Shown here: piece after piece, positions 7,245-25,388 of the stretch
Layout: every line of letters begins with the position of its first letter
Position numbering within the stretch: position 1 is the first letter of the stretch
Virus record (IMG/VR): IMGVR_UViG_3300001589_000126
Span: 1-27,563 of that record
DNA: 27,563 nt
Origin: a virus
Direction: 5' to 3' (one strand)
Notes under the pieces: generated by a model
What the model saw: only the letters and a program-made list of their open reading frames with translations
Told to the model about the DNA's origin: nothing
The model's database searches: none
Position numbers and translations under genes: made by a program

Positions 7245-7253
7245 GTATTTATC
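7245..7253 (-). promoter_or_regulatory. Late promoter motif GATAAATAC
   Basis: Minus-strand GATAAATAC between the oxygenase-like gene and the lipase gene. Confidence 0.7.
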
Positions 7254-7878: not shown

Positions 7879-8051
7879 ACTATATAATTTTCTCTACTTT
7901 TCTTTGCAGTATGTAATGTTCCACTTTTGGTTATATAAGGTTTTGTAATACCTTTACTTCCTCCTGGGCCACTCAATACTTGTACCATAAGTGTAAAAAC
8001 ACCTATCATTGCTATTAAAAATACTGCTACTAATATTACGCCGTCAATCAT
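7875..8051 (-). CDS. Single-span membrane protein (58 aa)
   Basis: A small gene, [20 protein letters not shown]..., with one membrane span (about residues 4-26) and a basic, Gly/Lys-rich C-terminal tail. It overlaps the ferredoxin gene by 8 bases (its ATG precedes the ferredoxin stop) and the oxygenase gene by 4 bases (ATGA). A GAGG site sits about ten bases upstream of the ATG. This tight coupling on both sides is the main evidence that it is real. The function is unknown; it could anchor a redox complex at the membrane. Confidence 0.75.
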
Positions 8052-8370
8052 CTTTTTCTGCTACCTCTATTGCTTGTTCTAATGTATATGGACTCTCATG
8101 TGCCATAGGTTCTTTTGTTTCTGTAATGTTTTCCCATACGTCTGCCATTCTCATGTTTATTTCTATAAACGGAATTTGCTCAGGAGGTAATTCATCATCA
8201 CTCCATATTGCATCTACAGGACACTCTGGTTCACATAAAGCACAATCTATACATTCGTCAGGATTGATTACTAACATGTCAGGTCCTTCGTAAAAACAAT
8301 CAACCGGACACACTTCGACACATTTCGTATCTTTACAACCTACACAAGGACTTCCTACTACAAATGCCAT
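8044..8370 (-). CDS. fdxA: Seven-iron ferredoxin (3Fe-4S/4Fe-4S)
   Basis: A 108-residue low-potential electron carrier of the bacterial FdxA/Azotobacter FdI type. All nine family cysteines are present at 9, 12, 17, 21, 25, 40, 43, 46 and 50, each exactly one position later than in Azotobacter FdI. By that alignment C9, C17 and C50 hold the 3Fe-4S cluster and C21, C40, C43 and C46 the 4Fe-4S cluster. [13 protein letters not shown] and PDECIDC are near-perfect family sequences. The length is normal for the family. It has its own near-consensus promoter at 8394-8421, so it can be expressed early, apart from the cytochrome genes upstream. Possible partners are the radical SAM enzyme at 13.4-14.4 kb or host reductases. 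Phage ferredoxins I know of are mostly the plant-type 2Fe-2S kind, so this type is notable. Confidence 0.95.
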
Positions 8371-8393
8371 ATCACTACTTATCTAAATGTCTT

Positions 8394-8421
8394 ATTATAC
8401 ATTAAATTAAAGGCTTGTCAA
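8394..8421 (-). promoter_or_regulatory. Sigma-70-type promoter before ferredoxin
   Basis: Minus strand TTGACA, 16 bases, TATAAT, both hexamers perfect. It ends 23 bases before the ferredoxin ATG and touches the stop codon of the 53-residue gene upstream. The leader would be short, with no strong ribosome binding site. Confidence 0.88.
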
Positions 8422-8583
8422 TTATGTTACAATACTAGCAAGAACAAGTAACAATGAGATTGTACCTAAAAATATACTTGCTACTAATAATGCGAATAGG
8501 ATAATTCGCAAGGGTGTTATTTTAATTTTACTTTCAGACTTTGTTCCAACACCTAGAACGGCCTTTACTGCATCTTTAATCAA
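8422..8583 (-). CDS. Single-span membrane protein (53 aa, TTG start)
   Basis: A 53-residue frame with an amphipathic, basic N-terminus (about 1-25) and a long hydrophobic span (RIILFALLVASIFLGTI, about 26-50). No ATG is available in frame. A TTG at 8583-8581 overlaps the TGA stop of the 83-residue gene upstream, which fits translational coupling. The end is fixed by TAA at 8422, just before the ferredoxin promoter. There is no recognised family. The combination of small size, one span and position suggests a small subunit of a membrane redox complex; this is inference. Confidence 0.6.
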   Translation of the reverse strand: MIKDAVKAVLGVGTKSESKIKITPLRIILFALLVASIFLGTISLLLVLASIVT

Positions 8584-8831
8584 AAGATAAATTGATTAAG
8601 TAGCATAACGGCTAACATTCCACCAAATACAACAATCTGTATAACAGCAGGTATCACTACAAACATTACCATTGGATCAAAATCCATTTTGTTCCAGTAA
8701 TCGTTTTCTCTCCAATGATCCATTTCCTCTGGAGTACAAGGTTCTGGTGCCCATTTCATTCCAGGTTGTCTTGCTACATCTTGATACGGTGTAGTAAATT
8801 CAAAATCTAATTGTTTAGTATTTTGGTTCAT
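8580..8831 (-). CDS. Small membrane protein after cytochrome c (83 aa)
   Basis: An 83-residue protein. Residues 1-52 are hydrophilic and aromatic (WAPEPCTPEEMDHWRENDYW), and residues about 54-80 form one membrane span (MVMFVVIPAVIQIVVFGGMLAVM). The soluble part therefore lies at the N-terminus. It starts inside the stop codon of the cytochrome gene (TAATG), so the two are coupled. I recognise no family. It could be a partner or docking subunit for the cytochrome. It is followed by a 4-base overlap with the 53-residue gene. Confidence 0.8.
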   Translation of the reverse strand: MNQNTKQLDFEFTTPYQDVARQPGMKWAPEPCTPEEMDHWRENDYWNKMDFDPMVMFVVIPAVIQIVVFGGMLAVMLLNQFIF

Positions 8832-9277
8832 TATTTTCCAGGTAAGCCTGCCTGTATGTATTCACCAATCATGCTGATGTCTTTGTCGGACAGCATTGCC
8901 GCTTGTCCCCACATCATAGCACTCATTGGTCCTACTTGTTCGTTGTTCTTATATGCTATTAGTCTGCCACTTATGTAGTCTGCTGTTTGTCCAGCAAGTT
9001 TAGGTCCTACACCACCGCCACCATCAGGTCCATGACATGCGGCACAACCTGACCATAAACTTCTAATATCACTAAATGGGTCACCTGCGGCTAAGGCCTG
9101 TTGGGCTCTTAGTTGATCTACTGACGTTCCATTTAATGCAACATACTCTCTATAGCATTCACCTGTACAAGATTGGTTACTGCTGTAACCAGTATACTCT
9201 AAAGACGGATAAACTTTGGTCACAAAAAATGTTGCTATTACTAGACACCCTAGTAAACTCATTCCTAATTCTCTCAT
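8831..9277 (-). CDS. Membrane-anchored c-type cytochrome
   Basis: A 148-residue class I cytochrome c. An N-terminal hydrophobic segment (about 6-21, MSLLGCLVIATFF) acts as signal anchor and places the heme domain in the periplasm. The heme site C78-A-A-C81-H82 is followed by GPDGGGGVGPKLAGQ. M118 in GPMSAMM is the likely axial ligand, and LSDKDISMIGEYI is the usual C-terminal helix. A second cysteine pair, C37-x3-C41, lies in the linker and lacks a following His, so it is not a heme site; a disulfide is possible. Heme attachment would need the host Ccm system. Expected job: passing electrons near a host respiratory complex. It lies one base after the 33-residue gene with an AGGA site. Phage-encoded c-type cytochromes are rare as far as I know. 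Confidence 0.92.
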   Translation of the reverse strand: MRELGMSLLGCLVIATFFVTKVYPSLEYTGYSSNQSCTGECYREYVALNGTSVDQLRAQQALAAGDPFSDIRSLWSGCAACHGPDGGGGVGPKLAGQTADYISGRLIAYKNNEQVGPMSAMMWGQAAMLSDKDISMIGEYIQAGLPGK

Positions 9278-9278
9278 A

Positions 9279-9380
9279 TTATGTTCCTGGTGTAAGTGCT
9301 AAAATACTTACAACAAATACTGTTGTTAATGTAAGTAGTTCTAGTCTATCTTTTATATTACTAATTGTGCGATGGCTCAT
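9279..9380 (-). CDS. Tiny single-span membrane protein (33 aa)
   Basis: A 33-residue frame starting MSHRTISNIKDRLELL with one hydrophobic span (LLTLTTVFVVSILAL, about 15-29). It ends one base before the cytochrome ATG. Length and topology are like small accessory subunits of oxidase complexes, but there is no sequence match that I can name. The start has no clear ribosome binding site, so the call rests on position and composition. It may instead be reached by coupling from the frame at 9361-9489. Confidence 0.5.
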   Translation of the reverse strand: MSHRTISNIKDRLELLTLTTVFVVSILALTPGT

Positions 9381-9489
9381 GATAAATGCCGATATTGATA
9401 ATCTGCCTCAAACTTCTAAGAGCGCCGTAATTTTGGCTGTCTATTTGGATGGAACAGACCAGCCATAATGTAAAAAACGATTTTATCAT
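9361..9489 (-). CDS. Possible short exported peptide (42 aa)
   Basis: A weak call. A 42-residue frame begins MIKSFFTLWLVCSIQ, which is signal-like, and then becomes hydrophilic. It begins 45 bases after the late promoter TATAAATA at 9534-9541 and overlaps the next small gene by 20 bases. No ribosome binding site is visible. It may be chance coding in the leader of the cytochrome operon. Confidence 0.25.
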   Translation of the reverse strand: MIKSFFTLWLVCSIQIDSQNYGALRSLRQIINIGIYHEPSHN

Positions 9490-9578: not shown

Positions 9579-10601
9579 TTAGAATTCTAATTTATAGTGC
9601 TTAATAAGTTCTATAGAATTGTTGTCGTAATAATCTTGTATGTCATCTAGTAATGTAACTACCTGGTCAAATCCTTGATGCTTTGTTATTACATTACCCC
9701 ATTTTGATATACCATATGTTTTTTTATAATAGGTATCTAACAAAGATATAATTGGTGCTCTATATTTGTTATTAAAATCATCATAATCACCTGATATGCT
9801 CATAAAATGCAATTTAATGTTTTCAAATCCTGTGTTAGACATTAAGTTAGGTTCACAGTTTTCTTCAGTAATATTATTATAATAAAGTTCTTTTAAATAA
9901 TTTCCTGTAGTTGAAACGTCTTGAGTGCCTATAACATTGTGCTTTTTAATTAAGTCTGTATAATTTTCTAAAGATTTAAAAAATAATTCTGGTGTATAAA
10001 AAAGAAGATCTTTACACATTTTAACATTGTTTTGTTCTGCATATACTTTGTATGGTATTATTGTAGATCTAAAAAGATCTACGTTACTGTGAACAGTACT
10101 CTCTATTTTTCCTGTTTCTTCGTTTAAACTGAATCTTGGAATATCTCCTCCCATTACTATACTTCTATCTGTATAATCTATTTGGTCTAGAAAGTATAAA
10201 TGATATGCTATTTGTGGACTACTTGTATGGTACTTTACAGAATATTCTAAATATTGTTCTGATTCTAAAAATGTTTTGAAGTCTAATTGTATTAATTGCA
10301 ATGGTATATCATGTTTCCTTGCAAAATTCTGTGCCATGTATGCATCAGGAGAATTTACAACATTCAGACCCCACATAGTTTCGTATGTTACTGCGGTAAA
10401 CTCTATACCTGCTTGTTTTAAAAGTAGACACATAAATTGACTGTCGTATCCACCGCTTAAACATACTAAAGGGTTTTTATATTCTTTTATTTTTTCTATA
10501 CATAAGTCTACTAAGGATACATCCGCACCAGGATCATTAAATTTAAGTTTAAATAATAAATTATCTAAATCTAAAGATAAGCCTCCTATATCATGTTTCA
10601 T
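9579..10601 (-). CDS. PP-loop ATPase, asparagine-synthetase-like
   Basis: A 340-residue N-type ATP pyrophosphatase. The PP-loop SGGYDS lies at residues 49-54 after the strand PLVCL, and TAVTYE (about 69-74) is the second strand of the fold. Such enzymes adenylate a carbonyl so that an amine or sulfur can attack it, as in asparagine synthetase, lasso-peptide cyclases, QueC and tRNA thiolases. It lacks the N-terminal glutaminase domain of AsnB and is longer than QueC. The downstream 200 residues match nothing I know. The ATG at 10601 has AGGA upstream. It is divergent from the subtilase gene. The substrate is unknown; amide or peptide-bond formation is one option. Confidence 0.8.
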   Translation of the reverse strand: MKHDIGGLSLDLDNLLFKLKFNDPGADVSLVDLCIEKIKEYKNPLVCLSGGYDSQFMCLLLKQAGIEFTAVTYETMWGLNVVNSPDAYMAQNFARKHDIPLQLIQLDFKTFLESEQYLEYSVKYHTSSPQIAYHLYFLDQIDYTDRSIVMGGDIPRFSLNEETGKIESTVHSNVDLFRSTIIPYKVYAEQNNVKMCKDLLFYTPELFFKSLENYTDLIKKHNVIGTQDVSTTGNYLKELYYNNITEENCEPNLMSNTGFENIKLHFMSISGDYDDFNNKYRAPIISLLDTYYKKTYGISKWGNVITKHQGFDQVVTLLDDIQDYYDNNSIELIKHYKLEF

Positions 10602-10636
10602 TATATCAGTATCCTATTTGTTTTTCTTCAATATAT

Positions 10637-10645
10637 GATAAATAC
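10637..10645 (+). promoter_or_regulatory. Late promoter motif GATAAATAC before subtilase
   Basis: Plus-strand GATAAATAC 48 bases before the subtilase ATG, in the divergent region between the PP-loop ATPase and subtilase genes. Confidence 0.7.
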
Positions 10646-10693
10646 TTATATAAAATAGCAATCATATTACCTATTTACTGGAGTTAAAACAAA

Positions 10694-12313
10694 ATGGCAA
10701 GTTATATAGTAGAAATGGACGCCGGAGTCCACGCAGACGCGGCGGCGGCTCAAAGTGCAATCACAACCACCGGAGCATCAGTTACAACAACCTTCGATTT
10801 AAACATGACATACCAAATAGACGGGACTGCTGAACAATTAGCGGCAATGTCTGGTGTAAAGTATTCTTCTTTAACAGACGCAAACAGCGGATTAGAAGCA
10901 TCAGTATTAGATACTAGTCATTTTAGTTATGTAGATAATAGAAGAAAAGTAGACGATGAAGGTAACGGTATTGTTAATGAAGCGTTTGTATCCAAATATA
11001 CAGGAAGCGGAAAAACTGTATATCTAGTAGATTCAGGTATAAATGCAAATCATACAGAATTTACAAATGGTACTGTTACTAACTTATGGACAGCATATGA
11101 CACCAATCCAGAAGGTGATGCTTATAATACTGATTACGAAGACAACGTAGGTCACGGTACAGCAGTAGGTTCGTTAATTATGGGCGATAATATTGGTACA
11201 GCAAAAGATGCCACATTAATTAATGTTAAACTATATGATTCAGTAGCAGGCGAGACTTCAGTTGGTAATGTTGTGACAGCATTTAGTAAAATACTTGCAC
11301 ATCATAATGCAAATGATAATACAGATGTTAAAGTATTATGTGCTCCTTGGATTACTACGCAAAACGATTTAATTGATTCTAAAGTAATGGAACTTAACAA
11401 TGCAAACGTTGTAGTAGTTGCGGCGGCTGGTAATAAAGATGAAGATGTAAACACTTTTTCTCCAGCAGGTATAGAAGAAATTATCACTGTTGGTTCACAT
11501 GACAGAAATTATAAAATTTCACAATTTACAAATACAGCATGGGACGGCGGAAGTGCTAGTGTCTCAATGCCAAACTACGGTGCTCCAGTTGATATTTTAG
11601 CAATTGGACAAGATGTATGTTATGCAGTATCAGTTGCTAATACATTATATTCTTCAGGTAGTGGAACAAGTCTTTCCTCAGGCCTAGTTGCAGGTGGTGT
11701 TGCAGGATTAATTGAAAAACATCCAACATTTAATTCTAATAAAATTAAAGAAGTATTAGTTGCAGAAGGTAGTCTTAAAAGTATATTGATAACGATGGAC
11801 ACCTCGGATCAAGATGGTCACGTGTTCCATGACAGTACTGCTAAAAAATATCCTGTTCTACAGTTAGACTCTGGAGGTGCTGATGCATCTGTAGATTTAT
11901 TTTCTACTCCATCAAGTGTTATAGGTAATGTAAAACGAGGAGAATCTGCAACTATAGATTTAGGTATTAATGGAAGTGCAACTAATATTGAAGTTCTTAC
12001 ATTCAGTCCTTTAACACCTTGGATGACATTTGATACAAATACAGGAATATTAAGTATAGACACTTCTGGTGTTGCGGCTGACAGAACTCCTGGATTTTAT
12101 ACATTTGGCGTTAAAGGTAAAATAGGTGATGTTTACCAAGTTGAAGAGTATACAGTAGGTTTATATGAAACTGATGAAACAGAATTACAAGGTAGTGTAA
12201 GCAGTTATTACTATGACACTGATAATGCAGAGTATGACTTAAATACAACTATTAACTATGAACTATCACCTCAGTTTGGTAATCAATCTAACTTACCTGT
12301 AGGTAAGTTATAA
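10694..12313 (+). CDS. Subtilisin-like serine protease (S8) with C-terminal beta domain
   Basis: A 539-residue protease. Residues 1-60 look like an I9-type inhibitor propeptide (ASYIVEMDA... GTAEQLAAMSGV). The catalytic triad is complete: D113 in VDSGIN, H154 in GHGTAVG and S326 in SGTSLSSG, with oxyanion N247 in AAAGN. The usual Pro after the Ser motif is replaced. From about residue 390 to the end lies a beta-rich region; PWMTFDTNTGILSID resembles Ig-like/cadherin-like repeats. There is no signal peptide, so the enzyme acts in the cytoplasm, in the virion or after lysis. GGAG lies ten bases before the ATG, and a late promoter motif is at 10637. It runs opposite to most neighbours. Possible roles are processing of virion proteins or of a modified peptide, or degrading host surface protein. 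Confidence 0.92.
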   Translation: MASYIVEMDAGVHADAAAAQSAITTTGASVTTTFDLNMTYQIDGTAEQLAAMSGVKYSSLTDANSGLEASVLDTSHFSYVDNRRKVDDEGNGIVNEAFVSKYTGSGKTVYLVDSGINANHTEFTNGTVTNLWTAYDTNPEGDAYNTDYEDNVGHGTAVGSLIMGDNIGTAKDATLINVKLYDSVAGETSVGNVVTAFSKILAHHNANDNTDVKVLCAPWITTQNDLIDSKVMELNNANVVVVAAAGNKDEDVNTFSPAGIEEIITVGSHDRNYKISQFTNTAWDGGSASVSMPNYGAPVDILAIGQDVCYAVSVANTLYSSGSGTSLSSGLVAGGVAGLIEKHPTFNSNKIKEVLVAEGSLKSILITMDTSDQDGHVFHDSTAKKYPVLQLDSGGADASVDLFSTPSSVIGNVKRGESATIDLGINGSATNIEVLTFSPLTPWMTFDTNTGILSIDTSGVAADRTPGFYTFGVKGKIGDVYQVEEYTVGLYETDETELQGSVSSYYYDTDNAEYDLNTTINYELSPQFGNQSNLPVGKL

Positions 12314-12334
12314 ATTATATTAAAATATTAAAAG

Positions 12335-13423
12335 TTGATTGACACATTACACTTAGATTTAACATCTTACAATAAAACTTTTAATAGTTTATCCCCTCAA
12401 GGTCAATGGTTTTGTAGCCGTATAGGTAAACGTAATTATCCTATTCAGGAATGTGACTTTAATTTACTAAAAGAATTTATTACAGAAAATACTCCCAAAA
12501 AAGTATTTTGTAATAGTTTCTATGGAGATTCTTTAGAGTATTCTAATATAGTAAACTTATCTAAATTATGTAAAGAATTAGATATTGAGTTTATGATTTT
12601 TACATATGGTAGTAATTTAGATACAGATCTAATACAGACTTTATTAGATAACAATTCTAGTTTTTATCTTTTTTCCTATGGTATAGAAAACAATACAGAT
12701 AGTGTTGTAAGTAATATTAATTGGGACAGTATTCATAATTTTTTAAAACAAACAAAAAATAAAACAATTATAGAATATGTTGGTTATCAACATAATCTGA
12801 TTGATTTGCTACCTTTTCTTAAAATATGTAAGCAAAATAATAATAGTATAAAAATTACAAAAGGTAATACATTTGAAGGCGGTGTAAAGAATGTATTCAA
12901 TGAAAAAGGCAACTGGTTACATGATGTCATTTATGTAACAGATAATTTACCTTATGAAAACGTTTTTTTACATGATGTTACAGAAGCAATAGCAACATAT
13001 AGGGATTTAAATTTACAACATAAAAATTTATATCGCACTACATTAGGATTCCTGAGTTTAAGATATTTCTTAAAAAATGATGAGGGACAAGACATATTTA
13101 ATATTAGAGTACCAGATAGATCAAGTGAATATAAATTGGATTTAGATTATAACAACGAAGTTTTTATAAATTTTACTGGACATGTATTTTGTAGTAGAGA
13201 AAGTTTTGAAGTATTTAATAATTGCTTATGTAATGATTGGGATAAAAAGGCCCAACAATATATTGTACAAACATTTAATGGATTTTTAAAAGATAAACAT
13301 GGGAAACATCAAAAAGATAAAGTGTTTATGGACAATGTTTTATTAAAAAATTTATTCTATTACAATAAGAACCATGAAGATTGTATATTAGAAAAGAATA
13401 TTAAAAAGTTCTATTGGAACTAA
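12335..13423 (+). CDS. Radical-SAM-like protein lacking the cluster cysteines
   Basis: A 362-residue protein whose N-terminal 180 residues follow the radical SAM barrel pattern: LHLDLTS (strand 1), KKVFCNSFYGDSLEY (strand 2, about 55-69), LDIEFMIFTYGS (strand 3), FYLFSYGI and EYVGYQHNLIDL. In place of the CxxxCxxC loop there is only TSYNKTFNSLSPQG, so no 4Fe-4S cluster can form and the enzyme is probably inactive or repurposed. It starts at a TTG 21 bases after the subtilase stop. An in-frame TAA just upstream excludes earlier starts, and the next Met is near residue 87. Its end overlaps the convergent radical SAM gene by 4 bases. The fold assignment is by eye and moderate. Confidence 0.7.
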   Translation: MIDTLHLDLTSYNKTFNSLSPQGQWFCSRIGKRNYPIQECDFNLLKEFITENTPKKVFCNSFYGDSLEYSNIVNLSKLCKELDIEFMIFTYGSNLDTDLIQTLLDNNSSFYLFSYGIENNTDSVVSNINWDSIHNFLKQTKNKTIIEYVGYQHNLIDLLPFLKICKQNNNSIKITKGNTFEGGVKNVFNEKGNWLHDVIYVTDNLPYENVFLHDVTEAIATYRDLNLQHKNLYRTTLGFLSLRYFLKNDEGQDIFNIRVPDRSSEYKLDLDYNNEVFINFTGHVFCSRESFEVFNNCLCNDWDKKAQQYIVQTFNGFLKDKHGKHQKDKVFMDNVLLKNLFYYNKNHEDCILEKNIKKFYWN

Positions 13424-14445
13424 GCAGTCTTAGTAATAGCAATATCTGAGATATTATTACAATATTCAAAGGGACAAGAAACTTCACTTGCAGGTAAACT
13501 CCAATTAGGATTACTTATATTACCAAAGTTTACAGCACCACACCAACTACTATACATCTCTCCTGTTGCATCTATATTTAAACTTTCGAATCCTAAATGA
13601 CATTTCATGTCTTTAAAAGAATTTAAACGTTGATTAATTATTTGATGACTTTGTACATACTTTGCTGTTCCGTCATCATATAAAAATTCTGTCATCCAAG
13701 AAGTATCTTCAACATGCTCATGTAGTTCATTATCCTCTTCTACATGTTCTATTTGCTCTACTGGAGGCATTGGCTTAATACCAGGACGTTGTAACACTTC
13801 TAGTTCTTGATCTGTGTAGTTCCAGTATGTTTCCTGCTTACTGTGAACGCCTAAGAGCTTCTTATACATTGTTTTAACACATATACTTACATTATCATAT
13901 CTATTATGTTCACAATTTAAAAACAATACTCTTAATTCTTCTACAAAATCTCCTAGATCTTGTACATGTCCACCTATACCAGCGATGTTAATATCTATTG
14001 TAACATGATCTTTAATTTCATTTATTACATCTATTATATGCTGTTTGTTTTGTGAGTCAGGATGAAATGTTAATACAACACCATCCATATAATGCTTTGC
14101 TTTACTCCACCATTTAACTGTTCTACTACCGTTTGTAAATACTACGTTATGTGTATCGTATTCACTTATTTTTCGTATAATATCTTCAAATCCAGGAATA
14201 ACTGTAACTTCTCCACCTATCAATTCAAAGTCCACACGTTTACCCAAGTTGTTATAATGCTGGGAAAGGCGCTCTATGGTCGTTAAATAGGACTCTAAGG
14301 GTAACCATGGCTTGGAACCGTCGTGTAATATACTAGGGCAGTATTCACATTCGTAGTTACATAAGTTGCCCATATTCCATTGGACTCTAATATTGTCCAT
14401 AGGACCTCGAGCATGGGGACCTCGTACTGAGACGAGATTAGGCAT
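13420..14445 (-). CDS. Radical SAM enzyme with C-terminal auxiliary-cluster cysteines
   Basis: A 341-residue protein. C29-x3-C33-x2-C36 (CNYECEYC) binds the SAM-cleaving 4Fe-4S cluster, GGE at 77-79 contacts the SAM amine, and VVFTNGS (101-107) is the next barrel strand. The C-terminal part has C282, C302, C324 and C329 in a SPASM/twitch-like spacing (KCHLG... SSWCG... CPFEYC), typical of enzymes that modify peptides or proteins. An acidic His/Glu-rich insertion lies at about 228-247. The start is one base after the PAAR stop with an AGGA site, so the two are co-translated. It needs a low-potential reductant; the ferredoxin at 8.0-8.4 kb is a candidate. The substrate is unknown; the PAAR tip or another virion protein is a testable guess. 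Confidence 0.9.
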   Translation of the reverse strand: MPNLVSVRGPHARGPMDNIRVQWNMGNLCNYECEYCPSILHDGSKPWLPLESYLTTIERLSQHYNNLGKRVDFELIGGEVTVIPGFEDIIRKISEYDTHNVVFTNGSRTVKWWSKAKHYMDGVVLTFHPDSQNKQHIIDVINEIKDHVTIDINIAGIGGHVQDLGDFVEELRVLFLNCEHNRYDNVSICVKTMYKKLLGVHSKQETYWNYTDQELEVLQRPGIKPMPPVEQIEHVEEDNELHEHVEDTSWMTEFLYDDGTAKYVQSHQIINQRLNSFKDMKCHLGFESLNIDATGEMYSSWCGAVNFGNISNPNWSLPASEVSCPFEYCNNISDIAITKTA

Positions 14446-14446
14446 T

Positions 14447-14722
14447 TTATAGTCCTGTTATGACTGTTGTTGATCCTGGGGATAATGTGTGACCGCAACT
14501 AACTGTACCAGGTGCAATAGAAACAAATTTTCCTTCTGCATAAACAGTACTGCTTCCTGATGCTATCAAACTACTGCCTGATGTGTGAGGTGCTTCTCCG
14601 TGTGTCGCTATTCCGTCACCAATTGTACTAATTGGTACACCTTCTACCATTACTGTTGGTGCGCCAGGCCCGATAATTATACCGCCGCCTGCCATATCCA
14701 TTCCTACTCTGCATGTTGTCAT
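14447..14722 (-). CDS. PAAR-domain spike-tip protein
   Basis: A 91-residue PAAR protein that caps the central baseplate spike and sharpens it for outer-membrane piercing, as T4 gp5.4 does. Gly/Pro-rich short strands repeat through the sequence (GPGAPTVMVEGVP, GSSTVYAEG). The expected zinc ligands H41, H46, C76 and H78 are all present. The length is typical for a stand-alone PAAR protein. It stands between the Sm-like gene and the radical SAM gene and is coupled to the latter. No clear ribosome binding site precedes its ATG; a CATAAATAC motif lies only five bases upstream, too close to serve this start. Confidence 0.9.
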   Translation of the reverse strand: MTTCRVGMDMAGGGIIIGPGAPTVMVEGVPISTIGDGIATHGEAPHTSGSSLIASGSSTVYAEGKFVSIAPGTVSCGHTLSPGSTTVITGL

Positions 14723-14730
14723 ACTAGTAT

Positions 14731-15045
14731 TTATGCAGATTCTACAGTTTCTGGCTCTACTTCTTTTGAATTAGCAACTAATAGTAAGTAATCTTCTTCT
14801 GGTTTGGATAACGTAGGACATATAGTTAATATTTTATTAAGGGAAAATATTACTTCACTTGAGTTACCAGTATATTGGTAAGGAACAGCCGCCACTTCAC
14901 CATCATTAATAATGATTGTCATAGGGTATTCACATGTAACATTTTTATCCTTTGCTACATAACCTATTAACTTAGTAATAAGTTCTACACCTGAAGTTAA
15001 TTTAATTGTTACTGTTTTGCCTACAAGGCTTTTGATATCATACAT
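14731..15045 (-). CDS. Sm/LSm-like phage protein
   Basis: A 104-residue protein. Residues 6-90 follow the Sm-fold pattern: GKTVTIKLTSGVELITKLIGY (strands 1-2), VTCEYPMTIII (strand 3), GEVAAVPYQY, and SLNKILTI for the last strand. Similar short Sm-like proteins occur in T4-like marine phages as I recall; whether they bind RNA is not known to me. The C-terminal tail is acidic (KEVEPETVESA). A late-type AATAAATAC lies 23 bases upstream, and the PAAR gene follows after eight bases. Confidence 0.72.
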   Translation of the reverse strand: MYDIKSLVGKTVTIKLTSGVELITKLIGYVAKDKNVTCEYPMTIIINDGEVAAVPYQYTGNSSEVIFSLNKILTICPTLSKPEEDYLLLVANSKEVEPETVESA

Positions 15046-15068: not shown

Positions 15069-15077
15069 GTATTTATT
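15069..15077 (-). promoter_or_regulatory. Late promoter motif AATAAATAC
   Basis: A minus-strand motif 23 bases before the Sm-like gene. It would drive the Sm-like, PAAR and radical SAM genes. Confidence 0.6.
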
Positions 15078-15984
15078 AAGAATTATCTAGTATGGATTGA
15101 ATTTTAGGTATAGCAAAATTGCGAGACCACTCTTCTTGTGCCTGTGGGCTTAGATGATGCGTATAATCTCCGCCTGGTTCGTTTTCTAAATTTTGCTTTT
15201 TCATCCTTTTGTGATCACTTTGTAATGCAGATGCTATACCAGGCTGTAACATATTATTGTCAGGAACAAAATCAAATATATATTTCTCGGTTCCATGTTG
15301 TGTTTCGTCTATTGCTATAGTCTGTCTGTTTAGATGATCAGGTTGTTTTAAGTTTGTTTCTGTTTGTTTAAATGTAAATGTATTTGGGCAGAATAAAAAT
15401 TTTATATTTTTACGTTGCATCAGTTCTACAGCACTTTGCATCATATATAGTTGCTTATGTGCTTCTAAATCGTGATCATACATATACATATACCATTTTC
15501 TAAATGCATAAAATTGATCTGAAGTAAAATATTGCTCTAACATCCACCAGTTATAACATGCTTCTTCGTAAGTACAGGTTAGATTGTTTTCTAATATACT
15601 AATTAGACTTTGGCTAGTTATTACAGGTGTATCGTTTGGGTAATCAGGATGTGAAGTTCTTGTAAAAGTACCAGGTGATCCATCGTCTCTAATATTTTCT
15701 ACATCATAGTCTAATTGTTTAAGTCCTTCAAATATACTGTATTCTTTACCTGTATTATTCCATACTATTCTACAAGGTGTTGTCCAACTTACAATAACAA
15801 AGTCTGCTTTTAATACATTTACAGCATAATCTATTTGCAGTCTAATACCAAAGTTATCACATGCTGGTCTGGCAATGTTTTGATATTCCCAACCAAAGTG
15901 CTTGGATATATAATATCCAAATTCTGTATCTAAATGATTAGGGTCTCTGGAACTCCAACTACAACCACAAACTACTAATTTCAT
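15076..15984 (-). CDS. SGNH-hydrolase-like protein
   Basis: A 302-residue protein with SGNH/GDSL-like features. CGCSWSS near the N-terminus holds the nucleophile-position Ser (S9). A block with ARPACDNFGI (about 38-47) lies where block II Gly/Asn is expected, and D273-x2-H276 near the C-terminus (GGDYTHHLS) matches block V. Family members are esterases, including acyl- and acetyl-ester hydrolases on glycans; the substrate is unknown. Its start is one base after the nrdB stop, so it is transcribed with nrdA-nrdB, which is an unexpected partner. A second protein of this type lies at 26.2-27.2 kb. Confidence 0.72.
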   Translation of the reverse strand: MKLVVCGCSWSSRDPNHLDTEFGYYISKHFGWEYQNIARPACDNFGIRLQIDYAVNVLKADFVIVSWTTPCRIVWNNTGKEYSIFEGLKQLDYDVENIRDDGSPGTFTRTSHPDYPNDTPVITSQSLISILENNLTCTYEEACYNWWMLEQYFTSDQFYAFRKWYMYMYDHDLEAHKQLYMMQSAVELMQRKNIKFLFCPNTFTFKQTETNLKQPDHLNRQTIAIDETQHGTEKYIFDFVPDNNMLQPGIASALQSDHKRMKKQNLENEPGGDYTHHLSPQAQEEWSRNFAIPKIQSILDNS

Positions 15985-19416: not shown

Positions 19417-19424
19417 TATTTATC
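19417..19424 (-). promoter_or_regulatory. Late promoter motif GATAAATA before nrdA
   Basis: A minus-strand motif 45 bases before the nrdA start, downstream of the sigma-70-like promoter. Confidence 0.5.
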
Positions 19425-19432
19425 TTATGTCT

Positions 19433-19461
19433 ATTGTAACATAAAACAATACTAAAATCAA
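19433..19461 (-). promoter_or_regulatory. Sigma-70-like promoter before nrdA
   Basis: Minus strand TTGATT, 17 bases, TACAAT. It is weaker than the other early-type promoters and overlaps the end of the upstream 143-residue gene. Confidence 0.6.
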
Positions 19462-19889
19462 GAAGTAATTATGTTTTTTTGTAAATTATGTATCTGAAAT
19501 ACTGTGGAATTCTCTTTGACATAATCCCATGTTTCTACCTTATTGGGAGTAAAGTTATATACTAGATCATCACATAGTATAACTAACCCTGAATTCCCTG
19601 TTATGTTATTACTTATCACCGGATATATAATTTTATCCTCAAATAAGAAACCTTTGTACACAAGAGTAGATGCAAGAACTAATGATACTCCGCTCTGACA
19701 AAAATATCCTTCATTTACAATTTCAAAAGGATTCGGCCAGCTCTTGGGAGTATAATAATCTAAATATCTAGAACTCAATTTAATAGAAGAGAAGTCTTCT
19801 AGTACTTCTTGTATATTAGCATGGTTTTTATTTCTTATATCTCGCCATTTAGATAACCGTTGTTCTGGCGTTTGTAGGTTTACAAACAT
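19458..19889 (-). CDS. Hypothetical protein after fibre gene
   Basis: A 143-residue soluble protein. An Arg/Lys-containing helix at the start (TPEQRLSKWRDIRNKNHANIQEVLEDF) is followed by a mixed alpha/beta body (SGVSLVLASTLVYKGFLFEDKIIYPVI). No family is recognised. It begins seven bases after the fibre gene stop, so it is part of the same late transcript. A chaperone or small partner of the fibre is a natural guess from position only. Confidence 0.78.
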   Translation of the reverse strand: MFVNLQTPEQRLSKWRDIRNKNHANIQEVLEDFSSIKLSSRYLDYYTPKSWPNPFEIVNEGYFCQSGVSLVLASTLVYKGFLFEDKIIYPVISNNITGNSGLVILCDDLVYNFTPNKVETWDYVKENSTVFQIHNLQKNIITS

Positions 19890-22623: not shown

Positions 22624-22632
22624 GTATTTATC
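22624..22632 (-). promoter_or_regulatory. Late promoter motif GATAAATAC before fibre gene
   Basis: A minus-strand motif 24 bases before the fibre start codon, with AGGAGA between. Confidence 0.75.
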
Positions 22633-25380: not shown

Positions 25381-25388
25381 TATTTATC
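25381..25388 (-). promoter_or_regulatory. Late promoter motif GATAAATA
   Basis: A minus-strand motif 33 bases before the 442-residue gene. Confidence 0.65.

Follow-up and report, generated by a model that had tools for sequence, protein, structure and literature searches.

A conserved enzyme gene block beside the PAAR spike-tip gene of uncultured aquatic phages and its possible role in the finishing of a virion protein

Genes encoded at the locus

The stretch considered here, virus record IMGVR_UViG_3300001589_000126 of IMG/VR, is a linear fragment of 27,563 bp analysed as the whole record (hereafter the window), and between its positions 9,579 and 14,722 lie five genes coding for a PP-loop ATP pyrophosphatase, a subtilase of family S8, a pseudo-radical-SAM (S-adenosylmethionine) protein, an intact radical SAM enzyme and a PAAR tail-spike tip protein. 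This gene block is real and conserved, and it is undescribed as far as the searched literature goes, where nothing relevant was found on a radical SAM enzyme together with PAAR in phages. A preliminary description, made from the letters of the window alone, had placed five such genes here and taken them for a possible peptide or virion-protein modification locus; all five open reading frames (ORFs) are present, and folds, motifs and Pfam matches bear out the proposed enzyme classes. Replication genes of the window's relatives are nearest to those of jumbo phages, for example Pseudomonas phage PA5oct and Sinorhizobium phage Phosso (~52-60% identity), and the longest relative, the 250,519-bp contig IMGVR_UViG_3300020360_000085 (G001), encodes portal, major head protein, head maturation protease, baseplate hub with tail lysozyme, and baseplate wedge; this likeness and this gene content assign the window to a family of large-genome tailed phages, aquatic and uncultured. 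The block was met in about 100 relatives, uncultured aquatic phages distantly akin to the jumbo phage PA5oct, and no counterpart of it was found in cultured phages. With searches reaching moderately distant relatives, the radical SAM and PP-loop enzymes had none in 84,980 prokaryote genomes, and neither these two nor the pseudo-radical-SAM protein had any in 50,697 phage records.

The PP-loop enzyme (340 aa; 9579..10601, minus strand) carries the motif SGGxDSQF, invariant in 66/66 full-length relatives. Its AlphaFold2 model (pLDDT 90.7) finds the best structural match in beta-lactam synthetase (Z 14.4, rmsd 3.9, 255 residues aligned), followed by human asparagine synthetase (Z 14.1), with LarE and NAD synthetase lower (~10-11). 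The predicted fold is shared with this class over residues 4-295 (Z ~14), as is the SGGxDS pyrophosphate motif, but the phage protein differs in having SGGxDSQF instead of SGGxDSS, in giving no match to PF00733 in the Pfam scan and in lacking the glutaminase domain, about 28 residues without any Pfam match preceding its core. The earlier label "asparagine-synthetase type" thus rests on fold because PF00733 is unmatched, and it fits the class as defined by fold and SGGxDS, not the glutamine-dependent asparagine synthetases. By sequence the protein is similar to NAD synthetase (1e-5) and weakly to QueC, MnmA and TilS; structural comparison also brings up viral matches to it, from uncultured phages and with 13-18% identity.

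The subtilase (539 aa; 10694..12313, plus strand) matches PF00082 (E=3e-24) with an intact Asp-His-Ser triad, and D113, H154, N247 and S326 are invariant among relatives. For the propeptide ascribed to it earlier the N-terminal ~75 residues are a candidate, being propeptide-like in size and position (PDB 3afg aligned from profile position 10), but no Pfam match to the I9 propeptide domain was obtained. The catalytic part is followed by a C-terminal beta domain, for which comparison with the other G001 proteins gave nothing convincing, and by a D-rich tail. Among curated models the subtilase scored with mycosin (2e-20) and QhpE (1e-9), and it also resembles PatA/PatG. Its assignment as prohead protease was rejected, G001 possessing a separate phrog_207 head maturation protease (E=1e-57).

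The pseudo-radical-SAM protein (362 aa, TTG start; 12335..13423, plus strand) has the fold of SuiB, SkfB and MoaA (Z 16-17; 16.9 for SuiB and 16.6 for MoaA) and differs from them in that the cluster-binding CxxxCxxC is present in 0/87 full-length relatives, as the description of a radical-SAM-like protein without cluster had anticipated. In the region after the second strand, where radical SAM enzymes carry GGE, a GD motif stands in 87/87. The homologue in locus L007 still gives a Pfam Radical_SAM match (profile 49-149, 1.2e-6), and comparison with the L111 homologue yields dN 0.32 and dS 1.08. Judged from its sequence, the protein is non-canonical but maintained, and its gene has not decayed. 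A canonical radical SAM protein matching the profile of the family at 1.5e-9 is encoded at L109:8623-9588(-) (G001 236623-237588) and possibly represents its parent lineage.

The intact radical SAM enzyme (341 aa; 13420..14445, minus strand) shows CNYxCxYCP in 82/82 relatives, while PF04055 scores 29.2 bits, slightly under the cut-off of 29.5. The SPASM-like cysteines named earlier are also there, four twitch-like residues (C282, C302, C324 and C329) whose pattern C-x19-C-x21-C-x4-C recurs in 79/82 relatives and is that of putative auxiliary-cluster ligands of the SPASM/twitch kind; the curated model for this kind stays below cut-off (NF033640, 15/170 bits), as does viperin (41/180 bits), and no NCBIfam model exceeds its own. 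Sequence similarity extends to SkfB (1e-3) and, below cut-off, to STM4011 (8e-12) and viperin (1e-10). A role as activase of ribonucleotide reductase was rejected, since the neighbouring NrdB is of ordinary class I type with the tyrosine in SYTH and therefore needs no activase. A defence or counter-defence role was rejected as well, PADLOC returning just generic subtilase, pVip and QueC similarity. A run of about 7-8 further radical SAM genes occupies 15 kb of phage genome in L105/L106 (G001 162-177 kb), and the one fully tested scored far over the cut-off of NF033640 (N_Twi_rSAM).

The similarities just listed invite the explanation that the substrate of the PP-loop and radical SAM enzymes is a small molecule, a nucleotide, a tRNA or a host surface sugar and that these enzymes are unrelated to PAAR. 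The weak likeness of the former to QueC, MnmA, TilS and NAD synthetase and of the latter to viperin and STM4011, a MoaA-like fold match and the conservation of the radical SAM enzyme point in this direction: with a mean column identity of 74% it is the most conserved member of the block, PAAR being among the less conserved with 39%, which is expected if its substrate is not PAAR. The predicted structure of the PP-loop enzyme, however, is nearer to asparagine and beta-lactam synthetases than to QueC or TilS, and neither the viperin nor the QueC model comes near its cut-off, leaving this explanation quite unlikely.

The PAAR protein (91 aa; 14447..14722, minus strand) scores 30.5 bits with PF05488, above cut-off, and matches the spike tip gp163.1 of phiKZ with E=2e-14. 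In sequence and in metal-binding residues it agrees with the phage PAAR spike tips (phiKZ gp163.1, T4 gp5.4 and that of Cr30); H41, H46, C76 and H78 are conserved, the C-x-H pattern being gone in a few members.

Conservation and variability of the block

In loci anchored on the radical SAM gene, down to 63% identity, the order LSM, PAAR, radical SAM, pseudo-radical-SAM, S8, PP-loop is kept wherever the contig reaches, and profile scans for the PP-loop and pseudo-radical-SAM proteins returned the same arrangement. The first component, a small LSM-like protein (phrog_527; 14731..15045, minus strand), is always upstream of PAAR and may be considered a neighbour rather than a certain member. To avoid anchoring on the set itself, the unrelated gene g19458 (window 19458-19889) was taken as reference: all 31 loci of sufficient length contain the PAAR, pseudo-radical-SAM, S8 and PP-loop genes, and the radical SAM gene accompanies them in 25 and is lacking in 6. 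Absence of co-occurrence among relatives had been named in advance as grounds for abandoning the modification idea, and the set does co-occur. The impression of a recently inserted block, given by first single-sequence scans that found PP-loop and pseudo-radical-SAM proteins in just 1-2 near relatives, was discarded, the neighbourhood analysis having traced this rarity to scan insensitivity. Each of the five genes is under purifying selection relative to its L111 homologue (dN/dS ~0.1-0.3).

Interruptions of the block are rare. Junctions from PAAR to PP-loop were broken in 1/297 cases versus 39/199 for the two junctions just upstream (NrdB|LSM 33/99, LSM|PAAR 6/100), with Fisher p=8e-16 for both upstream junctions pooled and 1e-3 for LSM|PAAR alone, p-values that overstate the evidence because the loci are related, their surroundings are syntenic and the overlap of convergent genes hinders insertion. 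The conserved gene order also takes in nrdA, nrdB, exo, g19897 and g24019, and synteny reaching over nrdAB and further makes linkage by itself a weak argument. This extended collinearity is the first of the grounds for considering the five as independent core genes, with PAAR as a structural tip, S8 as a late protease and the others as separate metabolic enzymes; their products would never cooperate, and stable gene order alone would hold the genes in place. Far rarer interruption of block junctions than of adjacent ones is less easily reconciled with such independence, though gene overlap could explain part of the difference.

The second ground is the behaviour of the radical SAM gene, which comes and goes without effect on its neighbours. 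It is missing from the locus in 14/81 distinct NrdB lineages, and at least 4 state changes of gain or loss are forced on the tree, the other four genes staying in place; it was not found elsewhere on the contigs lacking it, which span up to 102 kb of genomes possibly exceeding 250 kb. In such loci the pseudo-radical-SAM gene nearly always abuts or overlaps PAAR, the exceptions being L163/L164 and L256 (107-bp gap). Thus the radical SAM enzyme, which prompted the modification idea, is the least essential part of the block. The 3.4-kb insertion that separates PAAR from the pseudo-radical-SAM gene in L163 (3859-7167) and L164 carries other genes, among them two for secreted-looking proteins of 412 and 445 aa that by eye look like ascorbate-type, copper-dependent monooxygenases bearing a cytochrome-like part.

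Promoter motif ahead of the subtilase

The octamer GATAAATA at 10637..10644 (plus strand), 49 bp upstream of the subtilase, precedes S8 in 52/60 distinct loci versus 0.6 expected, mostly 24-61 bp from the start, and stands upstream of the PP-loop gene in 0/61; at 12-90 bp upstream it was found for none of the PP-loop, radical SAM, pseudo-radical-SAM, LSM and PAAR genes. In G001 it occurs 50 times versus 26.6 expected, 39 sites having a same-strand ORF start within 110 bp, and sister octamers with A, C or T at the first place are rarely located upstream of ORFs. The genes preceded by it in G001 include those for portal and for a baseplate hub, as well as several very large ORFs that look fibre-like. 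The late promoter of T4 is TATAAATA, and G001 encodes a gp55-like late sigma factor; by analogy with both, GATAAATA is probably a late promoter. The pseudo-radical-SAM gene, co-directional with the subtilase and beginning a median of 43 bp after it, is presumably read from the same promoter. One GATAAATA lies 5 bp from the PAAR start in G001, too close to serve as the promoter of PAAR. Further sites on the minus strand of the window (7246-7253, 19417-19424, 22625-22632 and 25381-25388) are situated upstream of a lipase-like gene, NrdA, g19897 and g24019 and are kept in 25/32, 16/81, 47/51 and 37/38 loci, respectively.

The difference in promoter signals between S8 and PP-loop again suits a set of independent genes. 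A late-type promoter shared by a co-directional pair also suits another explanation, in which the subtilase is directed against host proteins, either carried in the virion or acting at the lysis stage, and the pseudo-radical-SAM protein is a chaperone or adaptor loading it at the PAAR tip. The beta domain and acidic C-terminal tail of S8 are compatible with such a function, in Xanthomonas phage Mallos an S8 protease is encoded between a tail gene and lysis genes, and type VI secretion offers known examples of PAAR chaperones, a DUF2169 protein being the defining component of its Tvp systems (PMC13373197). The block resembles Tvp-related systems in that dedicated accessory proteins are encoded beside a PAAR protein (PMC13373197); on the other side, no Pfam match to DUF2169 was found in the locus proteins and no PAAR-S8 fusion was seen, the subtilase has no strongly hydrophobic signal-like segment (maximum KD19 of 1.3), and the PP-loop enzyme is left unexplained. 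On balance, a protease delivered in this way appears rather unlikely.

Genomic place of PAAR and its relation to the radical SAM enzyme

In all lineages seen, PAAR is a neighbour of the enzymes. In the window it lies one base from the radical SAM gene, and the spacing ranges from -52 to +9 nt in 49/49 loci measured, so that the coupling of the two genes noted earlier is confirmed wherever both exist, with the reservation that PAAR also occurs without its partner. In Caulobacter phage Cr30, in contrast, PAAR adjoins the hub/lysozyme gene rather than modification-type enzymes. The single detectable PAAR of G001 is at 10.1 kb and the hub/lysozyme gene at 124.8 kb; this distance of ~115 kb compared with the adjacency in Cr30 implies that the tip gene left the tail module or never joined it, and such remoteness from tail genes speaks against mere independence of the five genes.

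Proximity does not make PAAR the target of the radical SAM enzyme, as had been proposed. With at least four changes in the state of the enzyme available for comparison, no column of PAAR, LSM or PP-loop is conserved in its presence and relaxed in its absence, and no PAAR column separates the two groups. The lack of PAAR residues tracking the enzyme, together with the divergence between the two proteins in mean column identity, argues against PAAR as its substrate.

Relation to peptide modification systems

The combination of a radical SAM enzyme, an asparagine-synthetase-type enzyme and a subtilase similar to QhpE and PatA/PatG calls to mind a classical cluster for a ribosomally synthesized and post-translationally modified peptide (RiPP), whose product would be a diffusible modified peptide. 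A tailoring enzyme and a protease are indeed at hand in the radical SAM enzyme and S8, though the former is absent in some lineages. The small-ORF screen, covering 1.5-4 kb downstream of PP-loop and the gaps inside the block (all <100 bp), gave no small ORF conserved in all loci, in accordance with the earlier remark that no clear precursor peptide was found, and with no universal precursor the block does not qualify as a RiPP cluster. Downstream of PP-loop the window does contain two small ORFs, conserved and unannotated, one of 42 aa at 9361-9489(-) and a hydrophobic one of 33 aa at 9279-9380(-). The 42-aa ORF, just behind the PP-loop gene, would be the natural candidate, but while present in 26/37 contigs with the radical SAM gene (33-aa ORF: 31/37) it is missing in at least 11 of these, and both ORFs are found in 0/11 contigs without it. 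An RRE/PqqD-like leader-binding domain gave no Pfam match at E<=1 and an exporter no match in the locus proteins. A RiPP-like peptide system, as the preliminary description envisaged it, is accordingly not borne out, and a classical cluster of this kind is highly improbable, close to refuted by the missing precursor.

The nearest analogue is the maturation of quinohemoprotein amine dehydrogenase, where a single small protein encoded in the same operon is processed in the cytoplasm by both the radical SAM enzyme QhpD and the subtilisin-like protease QhpE (PMC7876137). The block shares both enzyme types with this Qhp system, S8 giving the QhpE match mentioned above, but no QhpC-like substrate with leader, flavoprotein or ABC exporter is present in the locus, the radical SAM enzyme is dispensable, and the PP-loop enzyme and the pseudo-radical-SAM protein are added. 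The block may thus work somewhat like the Qhp system without being a member of it.

Neighbouring genes

The junction between NrdB and LSM, a frequent insertion site, holds in the window and its nearest relatives only a 302-aa hydrolase-like gene (15076-15984, minus strand). On the other side, at 8044-9277 (minus strand), ferredoxin, a small membrane protein and a c-type cytochrome with a CAACH motif follow in a row; these genes, missing from several relatives, are a possible phage electron-transport module. In a relative, L091:16991-18541(+) is a 516-aa ORF with a superoxide dismutase match N-terminally and ParB-like proteins matched over the rest.

Discussion

Considered together, these observations allow the tentative suggestion that the block is a late module maturing or assembling the tail tip (PAAR) or a partner virion protein, the radical SAM enzyme being optional. 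Such a role is suggested by presence of the block in 31/31 loci, rarity of internal interruptions, GATAAATA ahead of S8, remoteness of PAAR from the hub, closeness of the pseudo-radical-SAM gene to PAAR where the radical SAM gene is missing and existence of a separate head protease, and by structural matches that relate the PP-loop enzyme to amide-forming enzymes and the pseudo-radical-SAM protein to peptide-binding radical SAM enzymes. In this scheme the subtilase and the pseudo-radical-SAM protein would be made from one late promoter; the latter, no longer cleaving SAM, would serve as a binding scaffold holding a virion protein; the PP-loop enzyme may adenylate a carboxylate on the held protein and join an amine or ammonia to it, giving an amidation or an isopeptide link; the subtilase would remove its own propeptide and then trim the product; and the intact radical SAM enzyme, where present, would add a further, dispensable modification. 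What the data establish are the gene identities, folds, catalytic motifs, conservation of the block, variability of the radical SAM gene and the promoter motif, whereas late timing, substrate, the individual chemical steps and their order are inferred. Several facts weigh against this assignment: MoaA, a small-molecule enzyme, matches the pseudo-radical-SAM protein as well as SuiB does; the near-invariant residues of PAAR are mostly metal ligands, few others being conserved; the PP-loop, PAAR and radical SAM genes are devoid of GATAAATA at 12-90 bp upstream; the preference of this octamer for structural over replication genes in G001 (3/11 versus 0/12, p=0.09), on which its late nature rests, is no more than suggestive; and linkage loses force in the syntenic surroundings. 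That a virion protein is modified is a plausible hypothesis, no modified protein having been seen. Independence of the core genes, the main rival, is about as likely as the late module and must be regarded as equally tentative.

The preliminary interpretation is therefore partly supported: the late-type promoter at the S8/pseudo-radical-SAM pair and the separation of PAAR from tail genes agree with a virion-protein modification locus, while PAAR as target of the radical SAM enzyme and the RiPP-like system do not hold. In its complete form, with late machinery covalently finishing the spike tip or a partner virion protein by means of the PP-loop enzyme, the subtilase, a dead radical SAM protein as substrate holder and an optional live one, the proposal is doubtful. 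To our knowledge, it would be the first dedicated enzymatic post-translational modification pathway for a tail tip.

Three enzyme families common in aquatic jumbo phages (PP-loop, pseudo-radical-SAM and radical SAM) are defined by the block even if the functions of its genes are separate, and the GATAAATA promoter motif can date the expression of genes behind it. Should the proposal be true, the spike apparatus of some tailed phages undergoes chemical processing by enzymes that are elsewhere familiar from peptide natural products; this would add a new layer to virion assembly and provide a source of protein-modifying catalysts.

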